Positions 25,810 to 54,299 of a DNA stretch of 64,000 nt are shown piece by piece. The notes beneath the pieces are model-generated. The model ran no database searches, was not told the origin of the DNA, and saw only the letters and a program-made list of their open reading frames with translations. A program made the position numbers and the translations under genes. The DNA is from Piscinibacter sp. XHJ-5 (GTDB lineage: Bacteria > Pseudomonadota > Gammaproteobacteria > Burkholderiales > Burkholderiaceae_C), in assembly GCF_029855045.1 (NCBI RefSeq), contig NZ_CP123228.1, positions 2,604,001 through 2,668,000 of the forward strand. The letters run 5' to 3'. The first letter of the stretch is position 1. The number at the start of each line of letters is the position of its first letter.

Positions 25810-25920
25810 GATGGTTCCAGGAGCTGGGGCGTTGGAAATGGGTTGCGTGATCGGCGCCGTCGTGAATCTTCAGCGCGCTGCTGAACTTCAGGCTAGTGCA
25901 CGGACGGCCGCCTCTCAATT

Positions 25921-25980
25921 CCCGATTCGGGTCCATTTGGATGCGCCACATAGACCGGTCGCGCGCTCCCCCGATCGGGG
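25921..25980. promoter_or_regulatory. two dyads between divergent two-component genes
   Basis: CCCGA-T-TCGGG (25921-25931) and the perfect 12-base palindrome CCCCGATCGGGG (25969-25980) lie 38 bases apart between the FixJ-like gene (start 25809) and the NarL-type kinase gene (start 25987). They share the CCCGAT/ATCGGG half-site and may bind one of the two adjacent regulators. The second dyad touches the kinase start region, so it could block translation initiation or transcription. Confidence 0.45.
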
Positions 25981-25986
25981 AATCGG

Positions 25987-33376: not shown

Positions 33377-34815
33377 CTAGACGTCCGCCCACCCGCCACC
33401 GAGTGCGAGGAACAGGTTGACCTGGTCGGCCGCGACGCGGCTTTCGGCTGCGGCCACGCTCTGCTCGATCTGGCTCAGCGTGCGCAGCGCATCCAGCACC
33501 GGGAGGTAGCCGATCCGGCCCGCTTCGAACAGGCGCTGCGTATCGCGCGCCGCGTTCTGCGCCTGCGTGCGGGCAGACTCCAGGATGATGCGCCGCTCCT
33601 GGTCACGGGCATGGACCTCCAGCGCGCTCTCCGTCTCCTTCAACGCGGTCAGCACGACACCGTCGAAGCGCGCGAGCAGCGCCTCGCGATCCGCCTGGGC
33701 GGCACGGATGCGCGCCTTGACTCTGGTTCTGTCCGGAAACTCCCAGCTGATGAGGGGACCGAGCGAGAACTTGAAGCTGTCGTTGCGCAAGGCGTGCTGA
33801 TCCACACCGACGGACCCGATCGAAGCGCCGAGAGCGACCTTCGGATAGAGGTCGCCCGTCACCACGCCGATCCTGTCCGACGCGGACAGCACGTCGAACT
33901 CCGCGCGGCGGATGTCGGGGCGACGCCGAAGCAGAGCGGCCCCGTCGCCGATCGGGATCGGCTTGGCCAGGCGCGGCTCCTGGTCGCAACGGCCCAGTTC
34001 CTCGGGAAGCTCCCGAGGCGTGCGGCCCGTGAGTGCGGCCAGGCGATACATCGCAACGCGCCGTTGCGCCTCGAGCGTGGGGATGGAGGCGCGCACCTGC
34101 TCTTCCTGGGCCGAGGAGCGATCGACGTCGACCGGGGTGCCTCGGCCATGGACGGCCAACCTGCGCGTGAGCTCCGTGCTGCGGGCCTGCAGGCTCACCT
34201 GGTTTTGCGCCACGACGATCTCCCTGCCCGCAGAGCACAGCTCCAGGTAGGCACGCGTCGTTTCGGCCACCACGCTCACGCGCGCGCGGCGTCCCGGGCC
34301 GCGGTGGCGGACCCGACATCGGCCTGCGCTGCGTCGATGCTGCGCTGGATCTGCCCGAACAGGTCGACCTGGTAGGAGACGCCGAACCCCGCGCCATAGA
34401 CGAACTTGCTGGGAAACGGCTTGCCCGGATGGAGCTCTTCCTGCGCCGAGCGCCGGGCGAAGGAGGGTTGGGCGCTGAGCGTGGTGGAAGGTTCCTGTGC
34501 GGCGCTGGCCAGGTCGAGCGCCGCTTGGGCCTTCAGCAGGTTCGCAGCGGCCGTCCGCAAGTCCGTGTTCGCCGCCAACGCCTGCTGCACCAGGCCATCG
34601 AGCGTCCGGCTGTCGTACAGGCGCCACCAGGCGTCGGGGACGGGCTCCTGGGCGACGTACCCATTGCTCGTGCCGATGAACGAGCCTTGCGCCGTGGGCT
34701 TGTTGAGCGCAGCAGCCTCGGGCAGCGGGGCGCGCGGTGGAATGAAGCCGGAGCAGCCGGCAAGCAAGGCGGCGAGCACGAGCGTGGCCAGCCGCTTCAT
34801 GGCGGGCGTTCTCAT
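33377..34815 (-). pseudogene. RND-type outer-membrane efflux lipoprotein (NodT/OprM family), frameshifted
   Basis: A NodT-family factor split in two frames. Part 1 (34815 to about 34280) has a lipobox signal (ALLAGC), the start IPPRAPLPEAAALNKPTAQG and YQVDLFGQIQRSIDAAQADV. Part 2 (about 34280 to 33377) continues VVAETTRAYLELCSAGREIV and LLRRRPDIRRAEFDVLSASD to its end. The break lies in a GCGCGCGCG run at 34280-34290; removing two bases (or adding one) restores one frame of about 478 residues. Either a recent inactivation, phase variation or a sequencing error. It is coupled (ATGA) to the HlyD gene. Confidence 0.85.
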
Positions 34816-35702
34816 CGCTTGCTCAACTGCAGGCGATCGGCGCCCAGCACGTCCACGCTGGCCGTGCGTCCCATGATCAGCCTGCGGTCCTCGGGCAGCG
34901 TGTCCAGCCGCACGCGAACGGGGATGCGCTGCGCGAGGCGCACCCAGTTGAACGTGGGGTTCACGTTGGCCAGCAGGTTCGAGCTCGGGCCGCGCTCACG
35001 ATCCTCGATGCCGGCGGCGATGCTGTCCACATGCCCGTAGAGGGGCTCGCTCTCGCCGATCAGGCGCACCCGCACGGCGTTGCCGACCTGCACGCGCGCG
35101 ATCTTCGTCTCCTCGAAATAGCCCATGACGTGGATCGAGTCCTTGTCGACCAGGGCCATGACCGCCCGCCCCGTCGTGGCATAGGCTCCCGGGCGCAGGT
35201 CCAGGTTCGTGACCCAGCCGTCCACCGGCGCCACGACGCGCGTGCGCGCGAGGTTCACCTTGGCGTTGTCGACGGCGGCGAGCGCCTGGGCCAGCGACGC
35301 ATTGAGCTGGTCCAGCTTCTGCCCGCTTTGCTCGCCGGTCTCCGCCGGCACCAGGTCGCCCAGCGCATGGTTTCGACGGTCCTCGCGCTGCGCCTGCGCG
35401 AGCTGCGACTTGAGGCCGCGAACCGACGCCTCGGCCTGGGCCAACGCAATGCGCGGGCGCACCGAGTCGACGGTGAACAGCAGGTCGCCCTTGTGCACGG
35501 CCTGGTTGTCGTGCACGGCAATGTGCTCGACGATGCCCGAGACGTCCGGAGCGATCTGCACCACGTCGGCTCGCACACGGCCGTCGCGTGTCCAGGGCGC
35601 CTCGCGATAGTGCTGCCACAGTCCGAAGCTCGCCCAGGCGCCGGCCGCGACGATGGCGACAGTGGCGCCCACCTTGAGAATGCGTTGGACCGGTATCTCC
35701 AT
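34812..35702 (-). CDS. HlyD-family periplasmic adaptor (AaeA-like)
   Basis: 296 residues from ATG 35702. One N-terminal membrane helix (VGATVAIVAAGAWASFGLWQ) is followed by lipoyl/barrel-sandwich halves (VRADVVQIAPDVSGIVEHIA and ARTRVVAPVDGWVTNLDLRP) around a coiled coil (residues 95-150), and a beta-barrel FEETKIARVQVGNAVRVRL. It matches p-hydroxybenzoate efflux adaptors that join a FUSC/AaeB pump with an outer-membrane channel. Neighbours are DUF1656 (7-base gap) and the outer-membrane factor (ATGA overlap). Confidence 0.92.
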   Translation of the reverse strand: MEIPVQRILKVGATVAIVAAGAWASFGLWQHYREAPWTRDGRVRADVVQIAPDVSGIVEHIAVHDNQAVHKGDLLFTVDSVRPRIALAQAEASVRGLKSQLAQAQREDRRNHALGDLVPAETGEQSGQKLDQLNASLAQALAAVDNAKVNLARTRVVAPVDGWVTNLDLRPGAYATTGRAVMALVDKDSIHVMGYFEETKIARVQVGNAVRVRLIGESEPLYGHVDSIAAGIEDRERGPSSNLLANVNPTFNWVRLAQRIPVRVRLDTLPEDRRLIMGRTASVDVLGADRLQLSKR

Positions 35703-35709
35703 CGTTGCT

Positions 35710-35940
35710 TCATCCCAGCAGGTAGACCAGATGCTCCTGGAAATGCGTGGCCGCGAGGGCCAACGCCAACCAGAGCACCGCGAACAGGGCGAGATCGACC
35801 AGCGGCGGATGCCAGACCCACCGGTACGCACCGAGGGCGACCAGCACGCGGCGCAGGATCGTCAACGCCGCGACGGCGACGAGCGCGGTGATCAGCGCCA
35901 CATCGAAGAACAGGCCGAACAGATTGATGTCGGCGATCAC
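35710..35940 (-). CDS. DUF1656 small membrane protein (AaeX-like)
   Basis: 76 residues from GTG 35940, which overlaps the FUSC stop (GTGA). Two membrane helices flank the conserved loop (FFDVALITALVAVAALTILR, then GAYRWVWHPPLVDLALFAVL). The WHPPLVDLALF motif is diagnostic of DUF1656, the small subunit found between AaeB and AaeA in aromatic-acid efflux operons. The longer open frame in this region is an artefact antisense to FUSC similarity. Confidence 0.9.
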   Translation of the reverse strand: MIADINLFGLFFDVALITALVAVAALTILRRVLVALGAYRWVWHPPLVDLALFAVLWLALALAATHFQEHLVYLLG

Positions 35941-37988
35941 GCAGGGGCCCCGTTCGCGGTTGAGGTGACGCGGCTCGGCGGAAAAAGTCCCAGCCGCAGG
36001 CCTGTCGCTGCCGTGAGCCCCTGCACGCGCAGAGCATCCGGATCGGACTCGACCAGCCTCGCGATGGCGCGGTCGATGGAGTCCAGGATGGTCGCCGCCG
36101 GGGCGATGTCCGGGCGTTCCAGACGTTGCCGGAAGTGAACCCCGATCTGCGTCAACGCGCTCTCGATGGCGGTGCGCACTTCCGGCTTCGCTGCCAGGCC
36201 CGCGTGACGCAGATCGAGCATGTTCACGCCGATCCTCAGATCGTCCAGCGCGCGCCCGGCCTGGGCTCGCAGCACGCCGCTCGTTGCGGCCATGCGCGGC
36301 AGCAGCAAGCCGATGCGGTCGAGCATGCGGCTGCCCCACGCCGCGCGGGAGAGCCCGTTCGTGTCGTCCGCCATGGCCGCGAGGTCGCGCCATGCTGCAC
36401 GCAGCAGCCTGCGCACCCGGGTCTCCGCGCCGATGACGCGGACCAGCGAGGTGACGACCAGCGCCACGGTGGAGCCCAGCACTGCTGCCATGGCCGTCGT
36501 CGTGAAGCTCCAGAAGTCGCCGGTCTGCATCGGCTGCAGGGCCACGAGGGTGAGCCAGATGATCGCGACGCCGAGGGCCGCCAGCCCCAACCTGGGCGTT
36601 GCGAGGTAGAGCGCGATGACGAAGAACAGCGGAGCCACCGCCAAGGCCAGCTCGACTGGACCGTCGAGCACCGGAAGGACCGCAAACACGTAGACCGCCG
36701 CGATGGGGATGGCGCCCAGCACCGCGGCACCGAGCAGCACCTTCTGGCCGGGACGCGGATCGTCGAGGGCCGCGAAAATCGAGCTCGACGAAGCGGCGAG
36801 GCCGACGGCCGCGGCACCCTGGTCCCAACCGAGCGTCCAGCAGATCGCACCGGCGACCACCACCGCCAACGACGCGGTCAGGCCTGACCATGCCGCCAGG
36901 GCGTGGTCGACGTGGCGGGGGTGCCGGGAGGCGTCCGCGAGCAGCCTGCGGATGCCACCCTCCGGAATGCTCTCGCTGTCGTCGAGATGCTGCAACAGGC
37001 TCAAGGAGTCGTTCCAGACGGCCAGCAGTTCGGCGAGCCTTTCCATTGCGCCGATCAGGAGCAGCTCGCTGTTCGCAAGCTCGGGCTGCTCCGCGTCGAT
37101 CAGAGCCTTGCCCGATGCGCCCAGACGAACGGCATCGGCCCGGGTGAGCGGTCGCTCGAGATGGAGCCGGACTGCCTTGAGGTGTGCATCGACTTTTGAC
37201 CCCAAGCGAGCATCGGTCGCCCGGATCGCCGGCAGCCGGTCTTCCACGCCGGCCAGGAGCGGCAGCAGCGCGAGCAGCCGCTCCTCGAGAGCGGTCACGA
37301 TGGCGATGTCCCGCGCGGTGATGCCCGGCTCGAAACGCAGATGGACGGCCAGGTTGCCCATCTCGGCCAGATCGGCGCCGAGACGCTCACGCGCGCGCCG
37401 TTGCGCGTCATCGGTCGGATCCGGCCCCAGCCCCTCCAGGAGCCAGCGTCTGGCGTCGCCGACGGTGGCGTGCACCCTGGCGACGAGGAGCGGCTTGACG
37501 CTACGGGGCGCGAAAACCGTGTGCACGGCCATCGACAGGGCCGCGCCCAGTGCGATCTCCTCCGCGCGCCACAGGGCCACGTCGAAGATGGACGATGGAT
37601 TGTTGGCCATCGGCATGCCGATCAAGGGCAAGGTGTACGCCGCCAGCAGGAACACATAGCTGCGTGGGCTGCGGTCCAGCAGCGACAGATAGAGGCACAG
37701 CCCGACCCACCCCGCCACGCCCAGGAGAAGCAACTCAGGCGCGGCGATGAAAGCAGGGATGACGAAGAGGGTGCCTGCGACGCCCAGCAGCGTTCCCAGG
37801 GCTCGATAGACCGAGCGCGAAACGACCGCTCCGGCTGCCGCCCCGAGCTGTTGACTCGTCAGGAAGACTGTCAGTACGGCCCATCCGGGATTGGTCAGGT
37901 TGAACCACAGCGCCAGCAACACGGCGGCGATGGCCGCCGCCGCTGTCTTGATCGCGAAGGCAACGCCACGAGCATTGAACGCATTCAT
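35937..37988 (-). CDS. FUSC-family aromatic-acid efflux pump (AaeB-like)
   Basis: 683 residues from ATG 37988. Two membrane bundles (about 10-170: IKTAAAAIAAVLLALWFNLT, SVYRALGTLLGVAGTLFVIP; about 350-500: LAVVVAGAICWTLGWDQGAA) each precede a cytoplasmic helical domain, as in AaeB/YccS. The protein exports hydroxylated aromatic acids or similar. It heads a four-gene operon (FUSC, DUF1656, HlyD, outer-membrane factor). Upstream are two copies of the CGAYACCAARGTATYG dyad, shared with the adjacent two-component modules, so the pump is probably under their control. Confidence 0.92.
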   Translation of the reverse strand: MNAFNARGVAFAIKTAAAAIAAVLLALWFNLTNPGWAVLTVFLTSQQLGAAAGAVVSRSVYRALGTLLGVAGTLFVIPAFIAAPELLLLGVAGWVGLCLYLSLLDRSPRSYVFLLAAYTLPLIGMPMANNPSSIFDVALWRAEEIALGAALSMAVHTVFAPRSVKPLLVARVHATVGDARRWLLEGLGPDPTDDAQRRARERLGADLAEMGNLAVHLRFEPGITARDIAIVTALEERLLALLPLLAGVEDRLPAIRATDARLGSKVDAHLKAVRLHLERPLTRADAVRLGASGKALIDAEQPELANSELLLIGAMERLAELLAVWNDSLSLLQHLDDSESIPEGGIRRLLADASRHPRHVDHALAAWSGLTASLAVVVAGAICWTLGWDQGAAAVGLAASSSSIFAALDDPRPGQKVLLGAAVLGAIPIAAVYVFAVLPVLDGPVELALAVAPLFFVIALYLATPRLGLAALGVAIIWLTLVALQPMQTGDFWSFTTTAMAAVLGSTVALVVTSLVRVIGAETRVRRLLRAAWRDLAAMADDTNGLSRAAWGSRMLDRIGLLLPRMAATSGVLRAQAGRALDDLRIGVNMLDLRHAGLAAKPEVRTAIESALTQIGVHFRQRLERPDIAPAATILDSIDRAIARLVESDPDALRVQGLTAATGLRLGLFPPSRVTSTANGAPA

Positions 37989-38043
37989 GAGAGAAGCGAT
38001 CTGACCGCAACCGGTGGCGCCGATCCATTGCACGTTGGTGTCG

Positions 38044-38102
38044 ACCGATACCAAAGCATCACCGTGGCACCGGAAGCAGACCGACACCAAAGTATCGTTT
38101 AC
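38044..38102. promoter_or_regulatory. two copies of the CGAYACCAARGTATYG dyad, FUSC/regulator divergent promoter
   Basis: Copy A, CGATACCAAAGCATCA (38046-38061), and copy B, CGACACCAAAGTATCG (38082-38097), are 36 bases apart centre to centre between the FUSC start (37988) and the receiver-only gene (38156). Copy B is a near-perfect inverted repeat, CGACAC-CAAA-GTATCG. Two further copies are at 38567 and 44638. Spacing of about 3.5 helical turns suggests binding on nearly the same side. The regulator is not identified. Confidence 0.6.
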
Positions 38103-38155
38103 CTCGGCCATCGCTCGGTGCATTCTTCCGCTCAGGGGGTGCAGCAAGGACCGTC

Positions 38156-38536
38156 ATGAAGCCGTCGGCTGAACCTGCGTTGATTTCCGTCGTCGATGAC
38201 GATGAATCGGTGCGCGAGGCGCTGCCTGATCTGCTGGGCGAATTCGGATTCGCGGCCCACGCGTTTTCGTCGGCCGCGGAATTTCTCGCGTCGGGCCACC
38301 TCGAGAGGACAGAGTGCCTCCTGCTCGACGTCGCGATGCCCGGGATGACGGGGCCGGAGCTGCAACTTGAGTTGAAGCGCCGCGGTGTGGGCATCCCGAT
38401 CGTGTTCATCACCGCACACAGCGACGAAGGCCTGCGTCCGCGGCTCATCGCGCAGGGTGCTGTGGAGTGCCTGTCGAAGCCTTTCAGCGACACGGCGCTT
38501 TTCGACGCCGTGACGACCGCCTTGTCTTCGAAATAG
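38156..38536 (+). CDS. receiver-only response regulator (FixJ-like N-terminal domain)
   Basis: 126 residues, a single CheY-like domain: SVVDDDESVREALPDLLGEF, phospho-acceptor D58 (LLLDVAMPGMTGPELQ), T in VFITAHSDEG and K in ECLSKPFSDTAL. No DNA-binding domain follows. It resembles the receiver half of FixJ. It precedes the giant kinase gene by 98 bases and is a clear paralogue of the 44190 receiver. Likely a phosphate relay or sink partner of the adjacent kinases. Confidence 0.92.
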   Translation: MKPSAEPALISVVDDDESVREALPDLLGEFGFAAHAFSSAAEFLASGHLERTECLLLDVAMPGMTGPELQLELKRRGVGIPIVFITAHSDEGLRPRLIAQGAVECLSKPFSDTALFDAVTTALSSK

Positions 38537-38563
38537 ACGAACCCCGCCGCGCGCGGCGGCGAC

Positions 38564-38590
38564 AACCGACACCAAGGTATTGTTTACGAC
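38564..38590 (+). promoter_or_regulatory. third copy of the dyad motif, upstream of the giant kinase
   Basis: CGACACCAAGGTATTG at 38567-38582 (followed by TTTACGAC) matches copy B (38082) at 14 of 16 positions, and also shares the following TTTAC. It lies 31 bases after the receiver gene and 52 bases before the kinase ATG (38635), consistent with a separate promoter for the kinase. Confidence 0.6.
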
Positions 38591-38634
38591 GGCCACACGT
38601 CGGCGCATGCTCGAGAGTCGGCGGAGCGACTTCG

Positions 38635-41600
38635 ATGAACCTACCCCTCGAGGCGTATTGCCCCATCGTGCCAACCGTGGACGGCGACGCCGCCATGGAG
38701 GTGCTGTGGCAGGACAGCGAGCGTGTCGTCCGGCGCGGGTGCCTTCCGTCGGCCGCAGGCCAGCGGCCGGTCCTGGCCGTGACGCTCGCCGAGGAGCACC
38801 CGGCTGCCGCGAGCCTGGATCGCCTCGCACACGAGTACGCGTTGCGTGACGACCTCGACGCCGAGTGGGCCCTGCGCCCCTTGCAGCTGGTGGGCGGGTC
38901 GCAGAAGCGTGTGCTGCTGTTGGAAGATCAGGGCGGCGAACCGCTCGAGCGGCTGCTCGGGACCCCCATGGAGGTCGGGCGCTTCCTGCACATCGCCGTC
39001 GGGATGACGGCCGCCCTGGCCTGCGTGCACGCTCGCGGCCTTGTTCACAAGGACATCAAGCCTGCCCACGTGTTCGTCGATGCCGCCGACCATGTGCGGC
39101 TCACCGGCTTCGGCATTGCATCGCGGCTGCCACGCGAGCGCCAGGCGCCCGAAGCGCCCGAGGTGATCGCCGGGACGCTCGCCTACATGGCGCCGGAGCA
39201 GACGGGGCGAATGAACCGCTCGATCGACTCGCGAAGCGACCTTTACGCGCTGGGGATCACGTTCTACCAAATGCTCACCGGGAGACTGCCGTTCACTGCG
39301 TCCGATCCCATGGCGTGGGTGCACGCGCACATCGCCAGGCGGCCTGTGCCGCCGGCGGAGCGGGTGCAGATGCCCGCCGTTCTGTCGGCCGTCGTCATGA
39401 AGCTGCTCGCCAAGACGGCGGAGGACCGATACCAGACCGCGGCGGGCGTGAACGTCGATCTGCAACGCTGTTTGAGCATGTACGAGGCGAGCGACGCCAT
39501 CGAAGCGTTTCCGCTCGGCGCCCACGACATTCCGGACGTGCTGCGCATTCCCGAGAAGCTGTACGGACGCGAGCCGGAGGTGGCCACGCTGTTGGCCGCC
39601 TTCGAACGCGTCGTTTCGCAAGGCGCGCCGGAGCTGGTCCTGGTGTCGGGGTATTCCGGCATCGGCAAGTCCTCGGTCGTCAACGAGCTGCACAAGGTCA
39701 TCGTTCCCCCGCGAGGCCTTTTCGCGTCGGGCAAGTTCGAGCAGTACCGGCGTGACGTTCCCTATTCCACGCTGGCCCAGGCATTCCAGACGCTCGTGCG
39801 CCAGGTGCTTGCCAGGAACGAAGCCGAAGTCGACCAGTGGCGCGAGGCCATGCGGGAGGCGCTGGGCAGCAACGCCGAGCTCATGGTTCGGCTCATTCCC
39901 GAGCTGGAGCTCCTGATCGGAAAGCCGCCACCGGTTCCAGAGCTTCCGCCGCAGGAAGCACAGGCCCGGTTCCAGCGAGTGTTCCGCCGGCTGCTCGGCG
40001 TGTTCGCGCGGCCCGAACATCCCCTGGTGCTGTTTCTCGACGATCTGCAGTGGCTGGACACGGCGAGCCTGACGTTGCTGGCCGACTTCGCCACGCAAAC
40101 TGAAGTGCGTCATCTCCTGCTTGTGGGCGCGTACAGGGACAACGAGGTCGATTCGTCCCACCCGTTGATGCGCAGCCTCGACGCCATCCGAAACGCCGGC
40201 GGATCCATCAGTGCGATCGTGCTGGCGCCCCTGGCACTTCGCGACCTCCGTGCCCTGATCGCCGATTCGCTGCATGGCGAAAATGATTGCGCGTCGCCGC
40301 TGGCAGATCTGGTCCATGAAAAGACCGCCGGCAATCCGTTCTTCGCGATCCAGTTTCTGGGTGCACTCGCGGAGGAGAAGCTCCTGACCTTCAACGCAGG
40401 CGATGGGACTTGGGTCGCGGACCTCGAGCGTATCCACGCGAAGGGGTACACCGACAACGTCGTCGACCTGGTGATCGGCAAGTTGCACCGGCTGCCGGCT
40501 GACACGCGGGAAGGTCTGAAACACCTCGCTTGCCTGGGAAGCCTCGCAGGGTCTGCCATCCTGGGCCGCATCTTCGGAGAATCGGCGGACCTGATGCAGG
40601 CGTCGCTGTGGCCCGCGGTTCGCGACGGCCTGCTCTTGCGCATGCCCGGAAGCTACGCCTTCGTGCATGACCGCGTGCAGGAAGCTGCCTACTCGTTGAT
40701 CTCGCAGCGCAGCCGGCCGGAGTTCCATCTGCGCATCGGGCGTGCCTTGCTGGCCTCCATGCGCGCGGACGAGGTCAACGACGTGGTCGACCAGTTCAAC
40801 CGCGGGGCCTCGCTGCTGGCGGATCCGCATGAGCGCGAGCAGATCGCGGAGCTCAACCTCCGCGCGGGACGCAGGGCGAAATCTTCGACGGCTTATGCCT
40901 CCGCCTGCACTTACCTGGCCGCCGGCGCGGCGCTGCTTCCCGAGAACGCGTGGAGCCGACGCTACGAACTTGCCTTCGCGTTGTGTCTCGAGCGGGCCGA
41001 ATGCGAGTACCTGAGCGGCAACTTCGACGCGGCCGAGGCGTTGATCGTGCAACTGCTCGCGCGCGCCGCATCGAACATCGACAAGGCCGCTGTCTACCGG
41101 CTCGAGGTCGACCTGCACGTGACGCGCTCGGAGAACCCGAAGGCCGTCGAGAGCGCGCTGGCCTGCCTGGCGCTGTTCGGCATCGTCATCCCGGCGCATC
41201 CCACCGCCGAACAGGTGGACGCGGAGTTCGAGCGTGTTTGGCGCAACCTGGCCGGCCGACCCATCGAAGACCTCCTGCATCTGCGCGAGATGACGGACCC
41301 CGCGCAGCGAGCGGCGATGGGAGTGCTCGGGTTGCTTTTCGCACCGGCCTACTTCACCGACGCCAACCTCGTGCAACTGCACCTGTCGTACTTGGTGAAC
41401 ATGACCCTGGAGCATGGGACGAGCGACGCTTCGGCCCACGGCTATGCGTGGTTCGGCGTCGTTGTCGGTACGCGCCTCGGTCGGTACACGGACGGCTATC
41501 GCTTCGCCAGGCTGGCCTGCGATCTCGTGGAGAAACTCGGGCTCGTGGCTTACAAGGCGAAGGTCTATTTCCCCACCGAATTGACGGCCCTCTGGGCACA

Positions 41601-44172
41601 GCCGGTTGCCACCGCGATCGACTACATCCGAGGCGCCCACCGCGCTGCCGTCGAGAACGGCGACCTCACCATCGCCTGCTACAGCTGCAACCACGCGGTC
41701 ACCGATCTGCTGCTTCGGGGCGATCCTCTCGACGAAGTGTGGCGCGAAACCGAGCGTGGCCTCGAATTCGCCCGCAAGGCGAAATTCCGCGACGTGGCGG
41801 ACATCATCGTGGCGCAACAGCGGTTCATCCAGGCCATGCGCGGGCGCACGACGACGTTCTCCAGTTTCAGCGACCCCGGTTTCGACGAGGCCGTCTTCGA
41901 GGCGGAGCTGACCGGCGAACGCATGGCCACCATGGTGTGCTGGTACTGGATCATCAAGCTGCAGGCGCGCTTCCTTGCCGGCGATCACGGCGCCGCACTC
42001 GATGCGAGCGCAAAGGCCAAGGCGCTCCTCTGGTCTTCGGATGGCCACATCCAGGTCTTCGACTACCACTTCTATACCGCGCTTTCGATCTGCGCGGCCT
42101 GGCGAGACCTCGCTGCGGAACGGCAAGGATCGGTGAGCGACGCGGTGCGAGAGCACCTGGACCGGCTCGCGGATTGGGCCGCCAACGGTGCCGTGACCTT
42201 CCGCGACCGGCATGCGCTGCTGCAGGCGGAGATCGCGCGCGTCGAAGGACGGGTGATCGAGGCCGAGCGGCAGTACGAGGAAGCCATCGGCCTGTCACGT
42301 GAGCACCGGTTCGTTCAGAACGAAGCGCTCGCCAGGGAGCTCGCCGGACGCTTCTATGCGGAACGCGGTTTCGCGGACATCGGCGAGCTCTACCTGCGCA
42401 AGGCTCGGCACTGCTATCTGCGCTGGGGAGCCGCCGGCAAGGTGCGGCAACTGGACGAAAGCTCACCGGGCCTGCGGGAGCAGGAGCACGAACCCGCTGC
42501 CATGGGGACGATCGGAGCGCCGGTGGAGCAGCTCGATCTGGCCACCGTGATCAAGGTGTCCCAGGCGGTTTCCGGCGAGATCGTGCTCGAGAGGATGCTC
42601 GACACGCTGATGCGCACGGCGATCGAACATGCGGGCGCCGAGCGCGGGCTGCTGATCCTGGCCCAGGCGGAGGGGCAAAGGATCGTGGCGGAGGCCACCA
42701 CCGCGGGCGACACCGTCGTCGTCCAGGTGGCGGCGCGGTCCGTGGCCGCGGCCGTCCTGCCGCAGTCCGTCCTGCAGTACGTTCTGCGCACGCACGAGAG
42801 CGTGATCCTCGGCGACGCGGTGGCACAGGGGCCGTTTGCCACCGACCCTTATGTGCGCGAGCGCGAGGCCCGGTCGATCCTTTGCCTGCCGCTGCTGAAT
42901 CGGGCCAAGCCCATCGGGGTGCTCTATCTCGAAAACAACCTGGCGGCGCACGTGTTCGCGCCGAGCCGCATCGCGGTACTGAAGCTGCTCGCCTCCGAGG
43001 CTGCGATCTCGCTGGAAAACACGCGCCTGTACCATGACCTCGCCGAACGCGAAGCGCGGATCCGGCGCCTGGTGGATGCCAACATCATCGGCATCATCAT
43101 CTGGGATTTCGCCGGCTGCATCCTCGATGCCAACGACGCGTTCCTTCGCATGGTGGGCTACGACCGCGAGGACCTCGTTTCGGGACGCATGCGCTGGACG
43201 GACCTGACCCCGCCCGAATGGCAGGAGCGCGATTCGCGCGAGCTCGTGCCCGAACTGAAATACGCGGGGAGTCTGCAGCCCTACGAGAAGGAGTATTTCC
43301 GCAAGGATGGCAGCCGCGTGCCTGTGCTGATCGGCGCGGCGAGCTTCGAGGCCGGCAACGAGGGCGTTGCTTTCGTGCTCGACCTGACGGAGCGCAAGCG
43401 TGCGGAAGCCGAAGCCCGTGACAGCGAGCGCCGTCACCACGAGATGCAGATGCGGCTCGCCGACGCGAACCGGCTCGCAAGCATCGGCCAGTTGTCCGCA
43501 TCGATCGCGCACGAGATCAACCAGCCGCTCGCGGGCATCGTCGCCAACGCCAACACCTGCGTGCGCCGGCTGGATGCCGACCCGCCGAACAACGCGGGCG
43601 CCGCCGAAGCGGCCAGGCGACTGATCCGCGATGCCAACCGCGCCTCGGAGGTCATCACGCGGCTGCGGGCCCTGTTCGGCAAGAAGGAGACGGCCACCGA
43701 GTGGGTGGACGTGGGCGAGACCGCACGCGAGGTGGTCGCGCTCTCGGCGACGGCGCTGCAGCACGAGCGCGTGGCGCTGCGCTGTGACTTCGCGCGGGAC
43801 CTTCCCCTCGTGAAGGCCGACCGCGTCCAGCTGCAGCAGGTGATCATGAACCTCGTGCGCAACGCGGCCGACGCGATGAGCGGCGTGGACGAAAGTGCGC
43901 GGGAGCTGGCCATCCGCACCGAACGCGACGAGGAAACCCACGTGCGGCTGACCGTCCAGGACACCGGCGTGGGACTCGACCCGCAGTGCGTCGACAAGCT
44001 GTTCGAGGCGTTCTACACGACCAAGAGCGGCGGCATGGGCATCGGACTGTCGGTCAGCCGCTCGATCATCGAGCGGCACCAGGGCCGCCTCTGGGCGGAA
44101 TCGAACGACGGACCGGGTGCGCGCTTCTCGTTCTCGCTTCCGGTCCCGCAGGCCAAGGACGCGCCCAGCTGA
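38635..44172 (+). CDS. multidomain sensor kinase: degenerate Ser/Thr kinase, AAA/STAND ATPase, helical repeats, GAF, PAS, HisKA, HATPase_c
   Basis: 1,845 residues from ATG 38635. Order: protein-kinase-like fold (about 1-290; HKDIKP at 138-143, MAPEQTGRMNRSIDSRSDLY); AAA/STAND ATPase (YGREPEV at 310, P-loop GYSGIGKSS 339-347, Walker B LVLFLDDLQWLD near 465-475); helical TPR-like region (about 780-1270); GAF (about 1300-1460); PAS (about 1475-1600, DLTERKRAE); HisKA with H1626 in SIAHEINQPL; HATPase ending SNDGPGARFSFSLP. The protein has no membrane helix, so it is cytoplasmic. The kinase-like domain lacks the ATP Lys (PVLAVT at 45-50), the catalytic-loop Asn (H145) and the DFG Asp (GFG 158-160), so it is probably a pseudokinase scaffold. 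Confidence 0.92.
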   Translation: MNLPLEAYCPIVPTVDGDAAMEVLWQDSERVVRRGCLPSAAGQRPVLAVTLAEEHPAAASLDRLAHEYALRDDLDAEWALRPLQLVGGSQKRVLLLEDQGGEPLERLLGTPMEVGRFLHIAVGMTAALACVHARGLVHKDIKPAHVFVDAADHVRLTGFGIASRLPRERQAPEAPEVIAGTLAYMAPEQTGRMNRSIDSRSDLYALGITFYQMLTGRLPFTASDPMAWVHAHIARRPVPPAERVQMPAVLSAVVMKLLAKTAEDRYQTAAGVNVDLQRCLSMYEASDAIEAFPLGAHDIPDVLRIPEKLYGREPEVATLLAAFERVVSQGAPELVLVSGYSGIGKSSVVNELHKVIVPPRGLFASGKFEQYRRDVPYSTLAQAFQTLVRQVLARNEAEVDQWREAMREALGSNAELMVRLIPELELLIGKPPPVPELPPQEAQARFQRVFRRLLGVFARPEHPLVLFLDDLQWLDTASLTLLADFATQTEVRHLLLVGAYRDNEVDSSHPLMRSLDAIRNAGGSISAIVLAPLALRDLRALIADSLHGENDCASPLADLVHEKTAGNPFFAIQFLGALAEEKLLTFNAGDGTWVADLERIHAKGYTDNVVDLVIGKLHRLPADTREGLKHLACLGSLAGSAILGRIFGESADLMQASLWPAVRDGLLLRMPGSYAFVHDRVQEAAYSLISQRSRPEFHLRIGRALLASMRADEVNDVVDQFNRGASLLADPHEREQIAELNLRAGRRAKSSTAYASACTYLAAGAALLPENAWSRRYELAFALCLERAECEYLSGNFDAAEALIVQLLARAASNIDKAAVYRLEVDLHVTRSENPKAVESALACLALFGIVIPAHPTAEQVDAEFERVWRNLAGRPIEDLLHLREMTDPAQRAAMGVLGLLFAPAYFTDANLVQLHLSYLVNMTLEHGTSDASAHGYAWFGVVVGTRLGRYTDGYRFARLACDLVEKLGLVAYKAKVYFPTELTALWAQPVATAIDYIRGAHRAAVENGDLTIACYSCNHAVTDLLLRGDPLDEVWRETERGLEFARKAKFRDVADIIVAQQRFIQAMRGRTTTFSSFSDPGFDEAVFEAELTGERMATMVCWYWIIKLQARFLAGDHGAALDASAKAKALLWSSDGHIQVFDYHFYTALSICAAWRDLAAERQGSVSDAVREHLDRLADWAANGAVTFRDRHALLQAEIARVEGRVIEAERQYEEAIGLSREHRFVQNEALARELAGRFYAERGFADIGELYLRKARHCYLRWGAAGKVRQLDESSPGLREQEHEPAAMGTIGAPVEQLDLATVIKVSQAVSGEIVLERMLDTLMRTAIEHAGAERGLLILAQAEGQRIVAEATTAGDTVVVQVAARSVAAAVLPQSVLQYVLRTHESVILGDAVAQGPFATDPYVREREARSILCLPLLNRAKPIGVLYLENNLAAHVFAPSRIAVLKLLASEAAISLENTRLYHDLAEREARIRRLVDANIIGIIIWDFAGCILDANDAFLRMVGYDREDLVSGRMRWTDLTPPEWQERDSRELVPELKYAGSLQPYEKEYFRKDGSRVPVLIGAASFEAGNEGVAFVLDLTERKRAEAEARDSERRHHEMQMRLADANRLASIGQLSASIAHEINQPLAGIVANANTCVRRLDADPPNNAGAAEAARRLIRDANRASEVITRLRALFGKKETATEWVDVGETAREVVALSATALQHERVALRCDFARDLPLVKADRVQLQQVIMNLVRNAADAMSGVDESARELAIRTERDEETHVRLTVQDTGVGLDPQCVDKLFEAFYTTKSGGMGIGLSVSRSIIERHQGRLWAESNDGPGARFSFSLPVPQAKDAPS

Positions 44173-44189
44173 GCCGCGGCCGCGCCGGA

Positions 44190-44573
44190 TCAGTGCCCGC
44201 CCAGTGCGAGCGCCAGGGCTTTCAGCAATGCCGTGTCGGTGAAGGGCTTGAACAGGCACTCCACCGCGCCCTGCGCAAGCAGCCGCTGCCGCACATCGTC
44301 CTCCGCGCGCGCGGTGATGAAGACGACCGGGATCGCATGGCCGCGGCGCGCCAGCTCGAGCTGCAGCTGCGGCCCGGACAGGCCGGGCATCGCGACGTCC
44401 AGGACGAGGCAGGCGATCCCCGCGATGCCATCGAAGGTGAGGAATTCCTCGGCCGACGCGAACACCCGGACAGCGTATCCGACCTGCATCAGCAGAGGGG
44501 GAAGCGATTCGCGCACCGACGAGTCGTCGTCGACGACGCAGACCAGTGGGCGCGCCAACTGCGGTTTCGGCAT
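44190..44573 (-). CDS. receiver-only response regulator (FixJ-like)
   Basis: 127 residues from ATG 44573. Receiver: VCVVDDDSSVRESLPPLLMQ, D59 (LVLDVAMPGLSGPQLQLELA), VVFITARAED, K in ECLFKPFTDTAL. No output domain. It is a paralogue of 38156 (shared DVAMPG, PQLQLEL/PELQLEL, IAQGAVECL/LAQGAVECL blocks). It converges on the giant kinase gene and is divergent from the second kinase, with the fourth dyad copy upstream. It probably pairs with kinase 44877. Confidence 0.92.
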   Translation of the reverse strand: MPKPQLARPLVCVVDDDSSVRESLPPLLMQVGYAVRVFASAEEFLTFDGIAGIACLVLDVAMPGLSGPQLQLELARRGHAIPVVFITARAEDDVRQRLLAQGAVECLFKPFTDTALLKALALALGGH

Positions 44574-44876
44574 GGGACCGCCCTTCGTGTCGATGGTTGT
44601 GCAAGCGAGGATGCGTTGTCTTGCGGCGACTGTCCACGATACTTTGGTGTCGTTTCGCGCCCGTTCATTGTTCGGGCTCGCCTCGGGCTGATGGACTGAC
44701 GCCGCGCAGCGACCCCTTGCGGGCATCGGAGCCCTTGTTTCCACCCGGGCCGCTGGGATAATCGTTCGAGCCGCTGATGACGGCGGCGAGGGGTCACCCG
44801 CGAAACGTATCGCTGGGATGTTCCGGACAGCGAGGTCCGCGATGAACCGATTTCTTGGTCTCGACATCGCAAGTCC
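44574..44876. promoter_or_regulatory. divergent intergenic region with fourth dyad copy
   Basis: This 303-base stretch separates the minus-strand receiver gene and the plus-strand kinase. CGATACTTTGGTGTCG (44638-44653) is the exact reverse complement of dyad copy B (38082-38097). It lies 65 bases before the receiver start and 224 bases before the kinase. I see no other gene or terminator in the stretch. Confidence 0.6.
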
Positions 44877-47330
44877 ATGAGCGCCATCCGTACCTCACGG
44901 ACGAAGGGTGCGCGCCCCGATGCGGCACGCTCGGTGCCGGTCGAGCAACTCGATCTGGCAACCGTGCTCGAGATCTCGCAAGCGGTGTTCGGCCAGACTG
45001 ATCGAGAGAAGCTGATCGCCACGGTGATGCGCCTGGCCCTGGAGCACACGGGTGCGCAGCGGGGTCTTTTGATACTTCCACGGGGCAATGCGTATCGGAT
45101 CGAGGCAGAGGCCCGGATCGGCGGCAATGAGGTGGTTGTCGATCTGCAGTCCGCCGACGTCACGGGCGCGCATCTGCCGGAGTTGGTTTTCCAACAGTGC
45201 GTGCGCACCAGGGAAAGCGTCCTGCTGCAGGATGCCTCGACAGAAGACCCGTTCTCCAACGACGAGTACCTGCGCAGTCACCCCGCACGTTCCGTGCTCT
45301 GCATGCCTTTGCTCAAGCAGACCCAGCTGGCCGGTGTCATCTACCTCGAGAACCAACTGGCTTCAAGCGTCTTCACAGCCGCCCGGATGACCTTGCTCAA
45401 GCTGCTGGCGTCCGGGGCGGCCATTTCGCTGGAGAACGCGAGTCTCTATCGCCATCTTCAGGAACGCGAGGCGAGGGTTCGTCGGCTGGTCGATTCCAAC
45501 ATCATCGGCATCGTCATCTGGCACGCCGATGGCCGGATCCTCGACGCCAACGAAGCGTTTCTCCGCATGATGGGGCACGACCTCGACGGCCTGGTCTCCG
45601 GCAATGTGCGATGGACCGATCTGACTCCATCGGAATGGCAAGTCCGCGACGCGCAGGCGATGGAGGAGTTGAGGTTGGTCGGAGTGGCCCGGTCATATGA
45701 AAAGGAGCTCTTCCGGAAAGACGGCACCCGCGTGCCGGTGCTGGTCGGAGGCGCGAGGTTCGAAGCGATGCCGGACGAGGGCGTGGCGTTCGTCGTCGAC
45801 CTGACCGAGCGCAAGCATGCGGAGGATGCACTGCGCGAGAGCGAGCGGGAGTCGCGCCTCATCGTGGACACCATTCCAGGCCTGGTCGCCATCCTGACGC
45901 CGGCCGGCGAGGTCGACGTCGTCAACAACCAGCTCATCGAGTACTGCGGGCAGTCGCTGGAGGCGATGAAGCAATGGGGCACGAACGGCACGGTTCATTC
46001 GGACGACCTGCCTCGCGTCGGTCAGGTGTTTGCGGCAGCGATCACCTCGGGCGAACCCTATGACTTCGAGGCGCGCATCCGGCGTTTCGATGGCATCTAC
46101 CGTTGGTTCCAGGTTCGTGGGCTCCCCCTTCGCGACAGCGGCGCGCATGTCGCCCGTTGGTACGTCCTGCTGACGGACATCGACGACCTGAAGAGCGCCG
46201 AGGCCGAACTCAGGCGCGTGTACGACAGCTTCAGCGATGCCCAGCGGTTGAGCAAGACGGGCAGCTTCATCACCGATCTGGTGGCGGACCACCACAACTG
46301 GTCCGAGCAGGCTTTCCGGATCTTCGACTTCGAGCCGGGGACGAAGGTCACGTTGAAGCGGGTTCGAGACACCATCCATCCCGACGACCTGGCGTCGTTC
46401 GAATCCATGATCGGGCGCGCCATGACAGGGATCGACGTCAGTTTCGCGTTCCGGACCGTGACGGCCCGGGGGATCGTGAAGCATGTGCGCGGCGTCGCCC
46501 ATGTCATCGAACATGTCGAGGGTCGCCCCATGTTCGTAGGCGCCATGCAGGACGTGACGGAGAGCATGGTCGCCGAGGAGGCCCTCAACAGGGCGCGCTC
46601 GGAGCTTGCCCATGTGGCTCGGGTGACGACCCTCAGCACGTTCACCGCTTCGCTTGCCCATGAAGTCAACCAGCCGCTCTCCGGGATCATCACCAACGCC
46701 GGCACATGCCTGCGCATGCTGGATTCCGATCGTCCGAATATCGAGGGCGCGTGCGAAACCGCGAGGCGGATCATTCGCGATGGCAACCGCGCATCGGACG
46801 TGATCACGCGGTTGCGTGCGCTGTTCAGCAAGAAGGAATTCACCCTGGAATCGCTGGACCTGAACGAGGCCACCCAAGAGGTCATCGCGGTGTCGTTGAG
46901 TGATCTCCAGAGAAGCCGCGTGACTGTCCAGTCGGAGCTGGCCGAAGATCTCCCCAGGGTCACCGGCGACCGGGTCCAGCTCCAGCAGGTCATCCTGAAC
47001 CTGCTGCGCAACGCGTCCGACGCCATGACGGGTGTCGACGATCGCCCTCGGCTCCTGAGGGTCATGACGGCGCGCGAAGACGGCGATCGTGTGCGCGTGA
47101 GCGTGCGGGATGCCGGCGTGGGCGTCGACCGTCAAAGCGCGGAGAAGCTCTTCGAGCCCTTCTACACGACCAAGCGCGGCGGCATGGGTATCGGGTTGTC
47201 CGTCAGCCGCTCGATCGTCGAGCGACATCATGGCCGTCTCTGGGCAGAGTCGAACGACGGGCCGGGTGCGACGTTTTCATTCTCCATTCCTTGCGCGCCC
47301 GATGGCCCTGCGAGAAGCGTCCATGGGTGA
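44877..47330 (+). CDS. GAF/PAS sensor histidine kinase
   Basis: 817 residues, no membrane helix. Order: GAF (about 25-185, LDLATVLEISQAVFGQTDRE), PAS1 (about 198-320, LVDSNIIGIVIWHADGRILD), PAS2 (about 330-440, IVDTIPGLVAILTPAGEVDV), PAS3 (about 450-565), HisKA with H595 (SLAHEVNQPLSGI), HATPase (LRNASDAM, DAGVGVD, GGMGIGLSVSRSIVERHHGR). It is colinear with the C-terminal 550 residues of the giant kinase, with two extra PAS domains and no kinase-like/ATPase front, so one derives from a duplication of the other or both from a common kinase. It partners with the adjacent receiver. Confidence 0.93.
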   Translation: MSAIRTSRTKGARPDAARSVPVEQLDLATVLEISQAVFGQTDREKLIATVMRLALEHTGAQRGLLILPRGNAYRIEAEARIGGNEVVVDLQSADVTGAHLPELVFQQCVRTRESVLLQDASTEDPFSNDEYLRSHPARSVLCMPLLKQTQLAGVIYLENQLASSVFTAARMTLLKLLASGAAISLENASLYRHLQEREARVRRLVDSNIIGIVIWHADGRILDANEAFLRMMGHDLDGLVSGNVRWTDLTPSEWQVRDAQAMEELRLVGVARSYEKELFRKDGTRVPVLVGGARFEAMPDEGVAFVVDLTERKHAEDALRESERESRLIVDTIPGLVAILTPAGEVDVVNNQLIEYCGQSLEAMKQWGTNGTVHSDDLPRVGQVFAAAITSGEPYDFEARIRRFDGIYRWFQVRGLPLRDSGAHVARWYVLLTDIDDLKSAEAELRRVYDSFSDAQRLSKTGSFITDLVADHHNWSEQAFRIFDFEPGTKVTLKRVRDTIHPDDLASFESMIGRAMTGIDVSFAFRTVTARGIVKHVRGVAHVIEHVEGRPMFVGAMQDVTESMVAEEALNRARSELAHVARVTTLSTFTASLAHEVNQPLSGIITNAGTCLRMLDSDRPNIEGACETARRIIRDGNRASDVITRLRALFSKKEFTLESLDLNEATQEVIAVSLSDLQRSRVTVQSELAEDLPRVTGDRVQLQQVILNLLRNASDAMTGVDDRPRLLRVMTAREDGDRVRVSVRDAGVGVDRQSAEKLFEPFYTTKRGGMGIGLSVSRSIVERHHGRLWAESNDGPGATFSFSIPCAPDGPARSVHG

Positions 47331-47347: not shown

Positions 47348-48721
47348 TCAGCGCAGGCCCTCTCCGGCCAGCGCATCACCGGTGAAGAACCGCGGGGGCT
47401 GGCGCCTCGCGGTGGGTTGGAAATAGCCGCGCGCGTAATCCGCTTGCACCAGGTAGGCCCCGGTCTGGAAGTCGAAGGTGACGGAAGCATCGCCGAATCC
47501 TTGATCGGCGGTTTCATAGAAGGGGATGTAGAAGCCGAACACCGACCGGTACAGCTTGCCGGCGGCGTCAAAGTTGTCGGACGCTCCTACTTCCGGCTGG
47601 TCTTCGTCGAAATAGAACTTGCGCTTGGCATAGACGTGACGTGCGCCTGCCTTGAGCGTCGCTTCCACTTCCCAGACTCGATGCAACTCCCAGCGCAGGC
47701 AGTCCGGCCCGGGGTGGCCTTTCAGGTAGCGCCTCGCCTCGGGACACGCGGCTTCGTCGAACAGCCTGAACGCGTTGTAGGGAATCAGCATCTCCCGCTT
47801 GCCGATCAGCTTGAAGTCGAAGCGATCCAGGCCCCCGTTGAAGACGGTAGCCTCGTCCATGACGGCCGCACCACCCGATATCGGATTGGGGGTGTCGTAC
47901 GCCAGTTCGGGCGTGAGCTTCACGCGTCGTTGCCCGGGCAAGTACTGCCATACCTTGCGGCGATTCTTGATGGGATCCACGTAGTCGATCAGAACGAGCT
48001 TTTCGCCCACCTTTCGCGCCGGGCCGGTGTAGTCGACGCGAACCAGCCAATACGAATCCGACGCAGACATCACCGCGTTGTTGTCGAGATAGAAGGCGGG
48101 GTACTCCTGCCAGATGTCGAGTTCGCCCTGCACGTTGATGCCCCCTGCGGCATCGATCATGATGTTTCGGAAGCTCGCCACGTAGGACGGTGACTGGTAC
48201 CTCAGGTTGTGGTTCCACATGACCTCGTTGCCGGTCTTCGGGATCGGAAACGGTACGCCGCCGTAGCAGCCTTCGAGCGCCAGTCCGTCCTGCGTTGTCT
48301 TGCAAGCGCTGGCGTTCTTCACGGAACGCTCGTTCACGTGGGCGGGATAGCGCTGGGTGCGGTGGCTCGGGTAGACGTCCAGCCGGAAGCTCGGGTACTT
48401 TTGCAGCAACGCCTTCGCTCCATCGCTGAGCTTGTCTGCGTGCTGGGCCATGTTGGCTCCGGTCACGCTGTACAGCGGCCTTTCGTCGGCGAACGGGTCC
48501 GGGCGCACGCGCGGATTCTTCGAGTCGAAGCTGGCAGGAGGCTTGACCTGGCCGTCGGTGTAGGGCGGGATGGTGCCTTCCTTGTTGCCGGCTTTCTCTG
48601 CGCCCCAAGGCATGAGCGTGGTGCCGAGTTGCCGGGCCTCGTCGGCGCTGACTGCCGCCATGGCCGCGGCCGAACCGCCGAGCATCACCGACGCCGCGGC
48701 TGCGCGAAGGATGGGGTTCAT
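47348..48721 (-). CDS. DUF1329 outer-membrane/periplasmic protein
   Basis: 457 residues with signal peptide (MNPILRAAAASVMLGGSAAA, cleavage after AMA). DUF1329 signatures are ADEARQLGTTLMPWGAEKAG, DGTIPPYT-like GTIPPYTDG, GGVPFPIPKTGNEVMWNH, and RRKVWQYLPGQRRVKLTPEL. The fold is related to LolA/LolB-like lipoprotein carriers, which suggests lipid or hydrophobic cargo binding. It is the last gene of the DUF1302-YCF48-MMPL-DUF1329 operon (22 bases after the transporter). Confidence 0.93.
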   Translation of the reverse strand: MNPILRAAAASVMLGGSAAAMAAVSADEARQLGTTLMPWGAEKAGNKEGTIPPYTDGQVKPPASFDSKNPRVRPDPFADERPLYSVTGANMAQHADKLSDGAKALLQKYPSFRLDVYPSHRTQRYPAHVNERSVKNASACKTTQDGLALEGCYGGVPFPIPKTGNEVMWNHNLRYQSPSYVASFRNIMIDAAGGINVQGELDIWQEYPAFYLDNNAVMSASDSYWLVRVDYTGPARKVGEKLVLIDYVDPIKNRRKVWQYLPGQRRVKLTPELAYDTPNPISGGAAVMDEATVFNGGLDRFDFKLIGKREMLIPYNAFRLFDEAACPEARRYLKGHPGPDCLRWELHRVWEVEATLKAGARHVYAKRKFYFDEDQPEVGASDNFDAAGKLYRSVFGFYIPFYETADQGFGDASVTFDFQTGAYLVQADYARGYFQPTARRQPPRFFTGDALAGEGLR

Positions 48722-48743
48722 GTCTCGTCTCCTTGTCGAGGGT

Positions 48744-51155: not shown

Positions 51156-51176
51156 GCGATGTCGTCCGGTGCGTGA

Positions 51177-52253
51177 TCAGCGGGGGGCACTCGCCGACCA
51201 GGGCAGCGGCGCCCCGAAGGCTCCGGCCGGTCCGGTGAGGACGAGGTTGCCGTTGCGACCCGGAGCCACGCCGTAGCAGGGCACGGGTCGTTTCAGCCGC
51301 GTGGCGACGAAAGTCCTGCCGCCATCCAGGCTGATATGGATGCTGCCGCCCTGATCGACGAGCGCGATGCGGCCGTCCGGCAGCGCTGCACCGGCCGTGA
51401 TGCCGGCGTCCGTGTTCATCGACACCTTTTGCCACGTGGCACCCTCGTCGGGACTGCGCCAGACCGAGCCGCGCATGCCGAAGGCGAGCAGGACGTCCGG
51501 GTCGGCGACCACGAGGCCGAAGAACGTGCCCGTGTAGGACGTTGTGACGGGCACGAACTTTTTCGCGCTCGCCTGCAGGCGCCAGACCTTGCCCTGCTCG
51601 CCGGCGAGGAACACGCGCCCTGGACGGCCACGCACCGCATAGAAGTGCAGCTCTTGCGCGTTCGATGTCCGGTCCATCCACGGCACCCAGGTCTTGCCTC
51701 CGTCCTCGGTGCGCAGGATGGTGTTGAAGGCGCCGACGACGAAGCCGGATGTCTCGTTTTCGAACTGCACGTCGAGGAAGGGCTGCGCGGTGGCCTGCGC
51801 CAAATGGGCCTCGGCCTGCGCGAGGGCGCGCGTTTCTTCCGGCGTGGGGGCACTGCGACCCTGGTAATACCGCCTGGCGATTTCGGCGGCTTGTTTCCCG
51901 GCAAGCTGTTTCGTCCATGTCGCCCCACCGTCCCGTGTCGCGAGCACGACGCCGCCGTGCCCCACGGCCCAGCCGATCCTGGGGCTGGGAAAGCTGATGC
52001 CCAGCAAGTCGACGCTGACGGGCACGGCGGCTTGGCGCCAGGTGGCGCCACTGTCGTCCGAATAGACGATGTGCCCCCGATGGCCGACGGCCACCACGCG
52101 ATCGCCGGCGCGCTCGGCGGCGAGCAGCGGAGAACGCGCGGCAAGCGAGCTCATGAGTGCGGGCTCGTCGGTGGGCTGGACGAAGCCACCAGCGAGACTC
52201 GCTGTCACCAGCGCCCACACCAAGAGCACGAGCACCTTCGGGCGGCGTGACAT
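51177..52253 (-). CDS. YCF48/BNR-like secreted beta-propeller protein
   Basis: 358 residues from ATG 52253. A signal peptide (VLVLLVWALVTASLAGGFVQ) is followed by BNR/Asp-box-type repeats: YSDDSGATWRQ, ATRDGGATWTKQL, RTEDGGKTWVPW, RSPDEGATWQKV and SLDGGRTFVATR, each a propeller blade. The family relates to YCF48/HCF136 assembly factors. It always appears, as I know the cluster, with DUF1302, MMPL and DUF1329 genes, probably as a periplasmic assembly or docking partner of the transporter. Gap to DUF1302 is 35 bases. Confidence 0.9.
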   Translation of the reverse strand: MSRRPKVLVLLVWALVTASLAGGFVQPTDEPALMSSLAARSPLLAAERAGDRVVAVGHRGHIVYSDDSGATWRQAAVPVSVDLLGISFPSPRIGWAVGHGGVVLATRDGGATWTKQLAGKQAAEIARRYYQGRSAPTPEETRALAQAEAHLAQATAQPFLDVQFENETSGFVVGAFNTILRTEDGGKTWVPWMDRTSNAQELHFYAVRGRPGRVFLAGEQGKVWRLQASAKKFVPVTTSYTGTFFGLVVADPDVLLAFGMRGSVWRSPDEGATWQKVSMNTDAGITAGAALPDGRIALVDQGGSIHISLDGGRTFVATRLKRPVPCYGVAPGRNGNLVLTGPAGAFGAPLPWSASAPR

Positions 52254-52288
52254 GGTGAGTGCTTTCGGATCTTCGAGTCCCCGCGGGG

Positions 52289-54073: not shown

Positions 54074-54299
54074 AGCGCCATGCTGCGCGCGGCGTGCCGA
54101 GATGGCGCGGACGACCCACTGCTCGACCGCGGATCAAACCGGAAGCGCGTGACCGAGTCAACTGGACGAAGGTATCGGTCGACGCCGCGCTGCGGCCCCA
54201 GTAACCATGACAACGATGAGCACTACCGAAGTCGGTCACGAACCATATACATTGCTGTCAGCACGCAACGGCGCGTGCTTGCGCTCCAGCGAGGGGGAC

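Follow-up and report, generated by a model that had tools for sequence, protein, structure and literature searches.

A 16-bp dyad around a two-component module and a FUSC efflux operon is a probable StyR/TodT-like FixJ operator

A 64,000-nucleotide stretch of Piscinibacter sp. XHJ-5 DNA (the window) carries four copies of a 16-bp dyad beside genes for an efflux pump and for signalling proteins, which raises the question of what protein reads the dyad and which genes it would control. The original prediction held that one transcription factor ties the pump to its own sensors, and the comparative evidence favours this arrangement. The dyad, as judged from sequence, is very probably the binding site of one control-protein family that would switch on the efflux pump, detoxifying enzymes and sensor genes together. 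The pump and sensors do belong to the proposed regulon, which is however wider than was thought and has members outside the window. The features of the window are listed in Table 1. By domain matches, the FUSC, HlyD and OEP genes stand together as a three-part pump operon, and PF00069, PF00512 and PF02518 occur in one chain (window ORF 38467-44172) that combines a Ser/Thr kinase with a histidine kinase.

Table 1 Genes, dyads and predicted promoter elements of the window.
Feature	Position	Strand	Remark
Outer membrane efflux protein (OEP)	33377..34627	-	
HlyD-type membrane fusion protein	34812..35831	-	
FUSC-family inner-membrane efflux protein	35937..37988	-	ATG 37988
FixJ-A, receiver + GerE response regulator	25051..25809	-	candidate binder
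Receiver 1, receiver-only response regulator	38156..38536	+	no HTH
Giant Ser/Thr kinase - AAA - GAF - PAS - histidine kinase	38635..44172	+	ORF from 38467
Receiver 2, receiver-only response regulator	44190..44573	-	no HTH; longer ORF called, start corrected
HK2, GAF-PAS histidine kinase	44877..47330	+	divergent from receiver 2
DUF1302 - YCF48/BNR-like - MMPL transporter - DUF1329 genes	47348..54073	all -	putative target operon
FixJ-B, receiver + GerE response regulator	54207..55010	+	candidate binder
Dyad CGATACCAAAGCATCA	38046-38061	+ as found	reads toward FUSC (-); window pattern match
Dyad CGACACCAAAGTATCG	38082-38097	+	receiver 1 promoter
Dyad CGACACCAAGGTATTG	38567-38582	+	giant kinase promoter
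Dyad CGACACCAAAGTATCG	44637-44652	-	receiver 2 promoter
Promoter-like TTTACC - 17 bp - CATTCT	38098..38126	+	directly after dyad; predicted from spacing
Promoter-like TTTACG - 17 bp - CATGCT	38583..38611	+	directly after dyad; predicted from spacing
Promoter-like TGGACA - 17 bp - CATCCT	44608..44636	-	directly after dyad; predicted from spacing
Second element CGACACCAACGTGCAAT	38027..38043	-	FUSC composite operator, 2 bp after dyad
-10-like hexamer TCAGAT	37999..38004	-	22 bp after FUSC second element; predicted from spacing
Second element CGATACCTTCGTCCAGT	54161..54177	-	faces DUF1302; preceding dyad half degenerate
-10-like hexamer TTTGAT	54133..54138	-	22 bp after 54161 second element; predicted from spacing

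All four 16-mers are present, and the copy that had been placed at 44638 begins one base earlier, at 44637. A search of the 64-kb window with CGAYACCAARGTATCG at up to three mismatches yielded 7 matches against 0.74 expected and a maximum of 4 in 100 shuffles. The four dyads are the best of these matches, with 0, 0, 1 and 2 mismatches, and the remaining three have 3 each. Three of the four overlap longest-ORF calls because those ORFs take upstream start codons. With the starts that we judge correct, ATG 37988 (FUSC), 38635 (giant kinase) and 44573 (receiver 2), from which the reading frames begin as expected for their families, all four dyads are intergenic, as had been claimed. They precede FUSC, the first receiver, the giant kinase and the second receiver as proposed, but the pattern search of the window found no good dyad facing HK2, the kinase of the second pair.

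Many coding hits genome-wide would have spoken against a regulatory site. CGAYACCAAAGTATCG at up to two mismatches occurs at only seven places in the whole genome (6,648,202 bp), namely the four window dyads, two intergenic places at 2718753 and 2731299, and 6434732 within a gene, such that six of the seven lie between genes after start correction. The claim that the dyad is confined to the surroundings of the signalling modules and efflux operon thus holds for the window and fails for the genome, which has further sites outside it. CGATACYNNRGTATCG at up to one mismatch returns 38082 and 44637 only. Two looser patterns were set aside: ATACCAAAGTAT, a looser core, has 16 genome places, several within genes, and CGAYACCAAGGTRTYG at up to two mismatches has 77 places against 24 for reversed controls and is too loose. 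A second giant Ser/Thr kinase-AAA-GAF-PAS-histidine kinase, 1831 amino acids long, is encoded at L034:1022-6517 (genome 2711022-2716517), near three operator sites outside the window.

The receivers adjacent to the dyads were rejected as DNA binders since neither has an HTH or any other DNA-binding domain; the binder must therefore be encoded elsewhere. The two FixJ-like regulators named in the original prediction, FixJ-A and FixJ-B, are the best candidates in light of the comparative evidence. They are 72% identical paralogs, and both contain PF00072 and PF00196; the database entry for FixJ-B (P0002) starts further in and has 236 amino acids. No dyad was found in the FixJ-A promoter and no site faces FixJ-B. 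The surroundings of FixJ-A (19305-27557) encode a Reg_prop/Y_Y_Y histidine kinase, a TonB receptor, a HisKA_3 kinase and another receiver-GerE regulator. A third FixJ paralog (51%) lies with a receiver-only gene and kinases at L040:7009-10036 (genome about 1787009-1790036). Only weak, altered sites, ATACCAAAGTCT and ATACCAAGGTGT, occur at this third locus, and they perhaps represent a sister specificity.

The association of the dyad with the regulator was examined in other genomes. A FixJ-B query against 299 genomes of the G289 family identified 57 genomes at E <= 1e-58, and the best locus of each of the 15 strongest genomes (62-73% identical) was compared with those of the 15 next (47-57%). 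CGATAC-N4-GTATCG with at most one mismatch is present at 10 of the 15 close-ortholog loci and at 1 of the 15 weaker-homolog loci (~3.6 kb each); the other five close-ortholog loci have no dyad within 1.5 kb. The HTH is nearly identical among the close orthologs. Sites are thus kept around orthologous regulators, which bears out the expected conservation in orthologous promoters. A receiver-only gene and an HK2-like gene accompany the regulator in 14 of the 15 close-ortholog regions, and regions L258 and L261 also contain a giant-kinase homolog (51-52%).

Seventeen larger regions, comprising the 15 close-ortholog regions, the L141 contig and one weaker paralog (L247), were used for statistical controls. 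Their intergenic DNA contains 18 occurrences of CGATAC-N4-GTATCG (at most one mismatch) against a mean of 0.17 and a maximum of 3 for 179 permuted half-sites, and the pattern ranks first of 20,480 gapped palindromes (4096 hexamers at 5 spacings). Regions L253, L254 and L256 are near-duplicates, and the sites are therefore not all independent. No dyad was found in the fetched regions of L264 (G573) and L261 (G612), both of which touch contig ends. The same permutation control is weak in this genome's own 149 kb, where the CGATAC dyad occurs 3 times in intergenic DNA at up to two mismatches against a permutation mean of 0.58 and a maximum of 5, because this genome's sites resemble CGACAC and three of them are masked by start calls. 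A matrix built from 19 sites of other genomes and scanned over the same 149 kb ranks 44637, 38082, 38046, 2731299, 2718753 and 38567 at the top. These six score 22.0 to 19.1 bits, the next place scores 13.7, and the best of 40 first-order random sequences scores 16.3.

Among 60 relatives, seven including this genome have matches to the dyad at up to one mismatch, with a single place each in the other six, whose surroundings were read by tblastn only. CGATACYNNRGTATCG at up to one mismatch occurs at 57 places in 14 genomes against 18 for the reversed control, 15 of them within module regions and 42 outside, and at two mismatches G289 and G334 have no more places than the reversed control would give.

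Two promoter layouts recur. The single dyad, found before receiver 1, the giant kinase and receiver 2, lies 23 bp before a -10-like CATNCT. The tandem (composite) operator consists of a dyad, a gap of 0-2 bp and a second element, CRAYACCNWCGTSCAAT, which lies 22 bp before a -10-like box; it is found here at FUSC and cytochrome P460, and elsewhere at hydrolase, OsmC and DJ-1 genes. Within 70 bp either side of 25 sites CATNCT occurs 13 times, 9 of them at +23/+24, a count made on the very sites on which the -10-like boxes were first spotted by eye. The spacing between dyad and -10-like box fits a site ~40 bp upstream of the predicted transcription start. Within 120 bp of 50 dyads, CRAYACCNWCGTSCAAT at up to three mismatches occurs 21 times, 16 of them at +1/+2, and in L258 (cytochrome bd) the second element follows the dyad with no gap. 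At exactly 22 bp past the second element, the hexamer has T as its first base in 15 of 16 rows and as its last base likewise in 15, and T stands at both ends in five further promoters (2719927, 2723234, G825 twice and window 54161). In our reading the second element would be a copy of the dyad that has diverged and keeps an equal spacing to the -10 box. The FUSC ATG lies just 10 nt past the predicted -10 box, and the FUSC mRNA would therefore be nearly leaderless, with some 4 nt ahead of the start codon.

The second element delineates further members of the regulon. In this genome it occurs without mismatch at four places: FUSC, 2719927, 2723234, which precedes a GerE regulator, and 2731317, which precedes cytochrome P460. 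All four lie in promoters within 90 kb, as does one of the three matches with a single mismatch. Window place 54161 is a one-mismatch match, and the weaker relative of the dyad reported near 54164 is therefore a second element: the resemblance is real (54162-54177), but it belongs to this other kind of site and faces DUF1302. Composites in other genomes face genes for alpha/beta and epoxide hydrolases, histidine kinases (membrane-type and others), OsmC, DJ-1/PfpI and glyoxalase. In three genomes an OsmC gene has operator elements next to it (L034:13234-14241, L259:15436-16324 and L295:4501-5186), and among these only the gene in L259 is faced by a composite.

The exact composite is rare and accompanies the regulator. 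Of 398 genomes in the G289 family, 299 of which were searched for the regulator, 3 have it, as do 2 of 399 in the window's family, and the reversed control occurs in none. All five of these carriers, out of 797 genomes in total, encode the regulator. In the window's family the regulator is present in 4 of 399 genomes (E <= 1e-70), two of which have no exact composite. G530, G380, G441 and this genome had been used in defining the pattern. G878, the remaining carrier, had not been used; its regulator is 61% identical with one TGA within the match, and it has neither dyad nor second element in its regulator region. The held-out carriers G825 and G884 have second elements near the regulator, and G884 has an imperfect composite before an RND pump operon. 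The FUSC operon of G441 (L260) has a 2-mismatch dyad and its composite points away from the pump; it was not counted. The four genomes of the same genus have no regulator at E <= 1e-70, and the regulator is therefore accessory.

A scan of all species with the exact 16-mer dyad alone returned at least 119 stretches. Of the 119 listed stretches, 110 encode nothing related to any of 11 window proteins at 1e-8. The second element (at most three mismatches) stands at +1/+2 in 8 of the 119 listed loci and at other offsets 3 times; L141, one of the eight, had helped to define the element and the other seven had not. The eight derive from Mesorhizobium, Rhizobium, five Acidobacteria records and a Gemmatimonadetes MAG, and their neighbours include glyoxalase, DJ-1/PfpI and DUF4331 genes. 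In Mesorhizobium kowhaii the composite operator precedes the DUF4331 gene (L048:6778), and in Rhizobium mesoamericanum it lies beside a truncated FixJ homolog with 81 amino acids aligned (L064:7505). Contig L265 (JADGNQ010000108.1), binned as Candidatus Sulfotelmatobacter, contains a FixJ-HK-receiver module and three composite operators, which precede DJ-1/PfpI, glyoxalase and one further gene. Given the other dyad-listed Acidobacteria with composites, this assignment may be real rather than a misbinning.

Among solved structures FixJ-B is closest to 1YIO (3.1e-55), followed by FixJ (5XSO, 5.8e-46) and NarL (1A04, 4.7e-12). 1YIO, deposited as 'response regulatory protein', is presumably StyR, which fits the K175/V176/H179 positions. 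FixJ-B shares the receiver + HTH architecture of FixJ but is less similar to it than to StyR, and the regions examined contain no oxygen-sensing FixL and no nif/fix targets. According to PMC5874301, StyR, TodT, TutB and TmoT recognise ATAAAC-N4-GTTTAT, and StyR uses Lys175, Val176 and His179. The likeness to these FixJ/NarL-type regulators extends to the 6-4-6 operator layout with its inner AC-N4-GT (PMC5874301); however, the half-site here is CGATAC rather than ATAAAC, and the contact positions in FixJ-B are K, A and G, such that only the lysine is kept. PMC2442086 describes StyR as activating from a site near -40 and binding several sites per promoter; the model proposed here would likewise place a site near -40 and, in output promoters, two sites. 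The regulator thus appears to work like StyR/TodT yet fails their operator and contact-residue definition.

The module also differs from its relatives in composition. Unlike StyS/StyR and TodS/TodT, it includes receiver-only proteins and a giant Ser/Thr-His kinase, and its predicted outputs are efflux and detoxification, not one catabolic operon. Like HstK-type dual kinases (PMC1262709), in which Ser/Thr kinase, GAF and histidine kinase domains share a single chain, the giant kinase unites these domains, but it adds AAA and PAS, sits in a FixJ/receiver module and is predicted to be under the operator of that module. The pump resembles FUSC/HlyD/OEP operons of the aromatic acid and fusaric acid type, three-part pumps with a FUSC inner-membrane protein, and unlike the better known of these it would be under a FixJ-type composite operator. 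To our knowledge, the better known FUSC-type pumps use other regulator types. No description of this operator or module was found in the literature searched, as judged by titles and the beginnings of abstracts.

CGATAC-N4-GTATCG is probably a StyR/TodT-like FixJ operator that mediates activation, with single sites for signalling genes and tandem sites for output genes. On sites whose presence, conservation, fixed spacing and association with the regulator are plain in the DNA, a phosphorylated FixJ dimer would bind just upstream of the -35 region, with its centre at about -43, and activate transcription. The regulator would be phosphorylated by HK2, the giant kinase or both. Receiver 1, the giant kinase and receiver 2 would each be served by one dyad. 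A tandem operator, the dyad plus its putative diverged copy 0-2 bp further, with the copy spaced from the -10-like box as a single dyad is, would serve the FUSC pump, cytochrome P460, the GerE regulator and the promoter at genome 2719927 here, and hydrolases, OsmC, DJ-1 and glyoxalase genes elsewhere. The sensors would be raised along with efflux and detoxification in a positive-feedback loop. Hydrolases, OsmC, DJ-1, glyoxalase and pumps recur among the targets, which points to organic or electrophile stress, and not to a single solvent, as the signal.

The same sites and regulator could instead serve repression, with the dimer lying over the -35 region and blocking polymerase until a signal releases it. 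The sites adjoin or overlie the presumed -35 region, and StyR can also repress PstyA once a second site is filled (PMC2442086). However, no -35 hexamer can be recognised at the proper distance in the output promoters, which is what promoters that depend on an activator should show, and StyR activates from its site at about -40 (PMC2442086), so we regard repression as unlikely. It is less likely still that another nearby regulator of LysR, GerE-only or AraC type binds the dyads. LysR genes adjoin two genome sites, one GerE regulator is itself a target, and an AraC-type protein, by our reading of its sequence, lies beside the G825 element, but none of these is found repeatedly in the 17 regions, unlike the FixJ gene with its receiver and kinase, and a 6-4-6 layout like that of the dyad is reported for the operators of StyR-like regulators (PMC5874301). 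That a promoter fragment was dispersed or duplicated and its copies have no regulatory meaning is hardly credible, since flanks and spacers vary between genomes while half-sites and the distance to the -10-like box are kept, even though the similarity of the 38082 and 38567 promoters extends somewhat past the 16-mer and some other genomes (L253, L254, L256) are near-duplicates of each other, and chance is excluded by the window shuffles, half-site permutations, matrix scan and dyad-selected loci.

Activation by a StyR-like FixJ regulator thus remains the preferred reading. It is somewhat favoured that this is a StyR-like branch with its own operator grammar, for which no description was found, and that dual kinases, lone receivers, pumps and detoxifying enzymes form one accessory stress regulon spread across phyla (Burkholderiales, Rhizobiales, Acidobacteria and perhaps Gemmatimonadetes) with operators conserved to the base pair. 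For the branch and its neighbouring giant dual kinases, this would define an operator, a promoter grammar open to testing, and a list of targets in many genomes. The model predicts joint induction of efflux, of peroxide, aldehyde, ester or epoxide detoxification, and of the sensors themselves. Set side by side, the operators ATAAAC-N4-GTTTAT and CGATAC-N4-GTATCG, whose regulators differ in two of the three contact residues, would offer a natural case of a change in FixJ-type DNA specificity.
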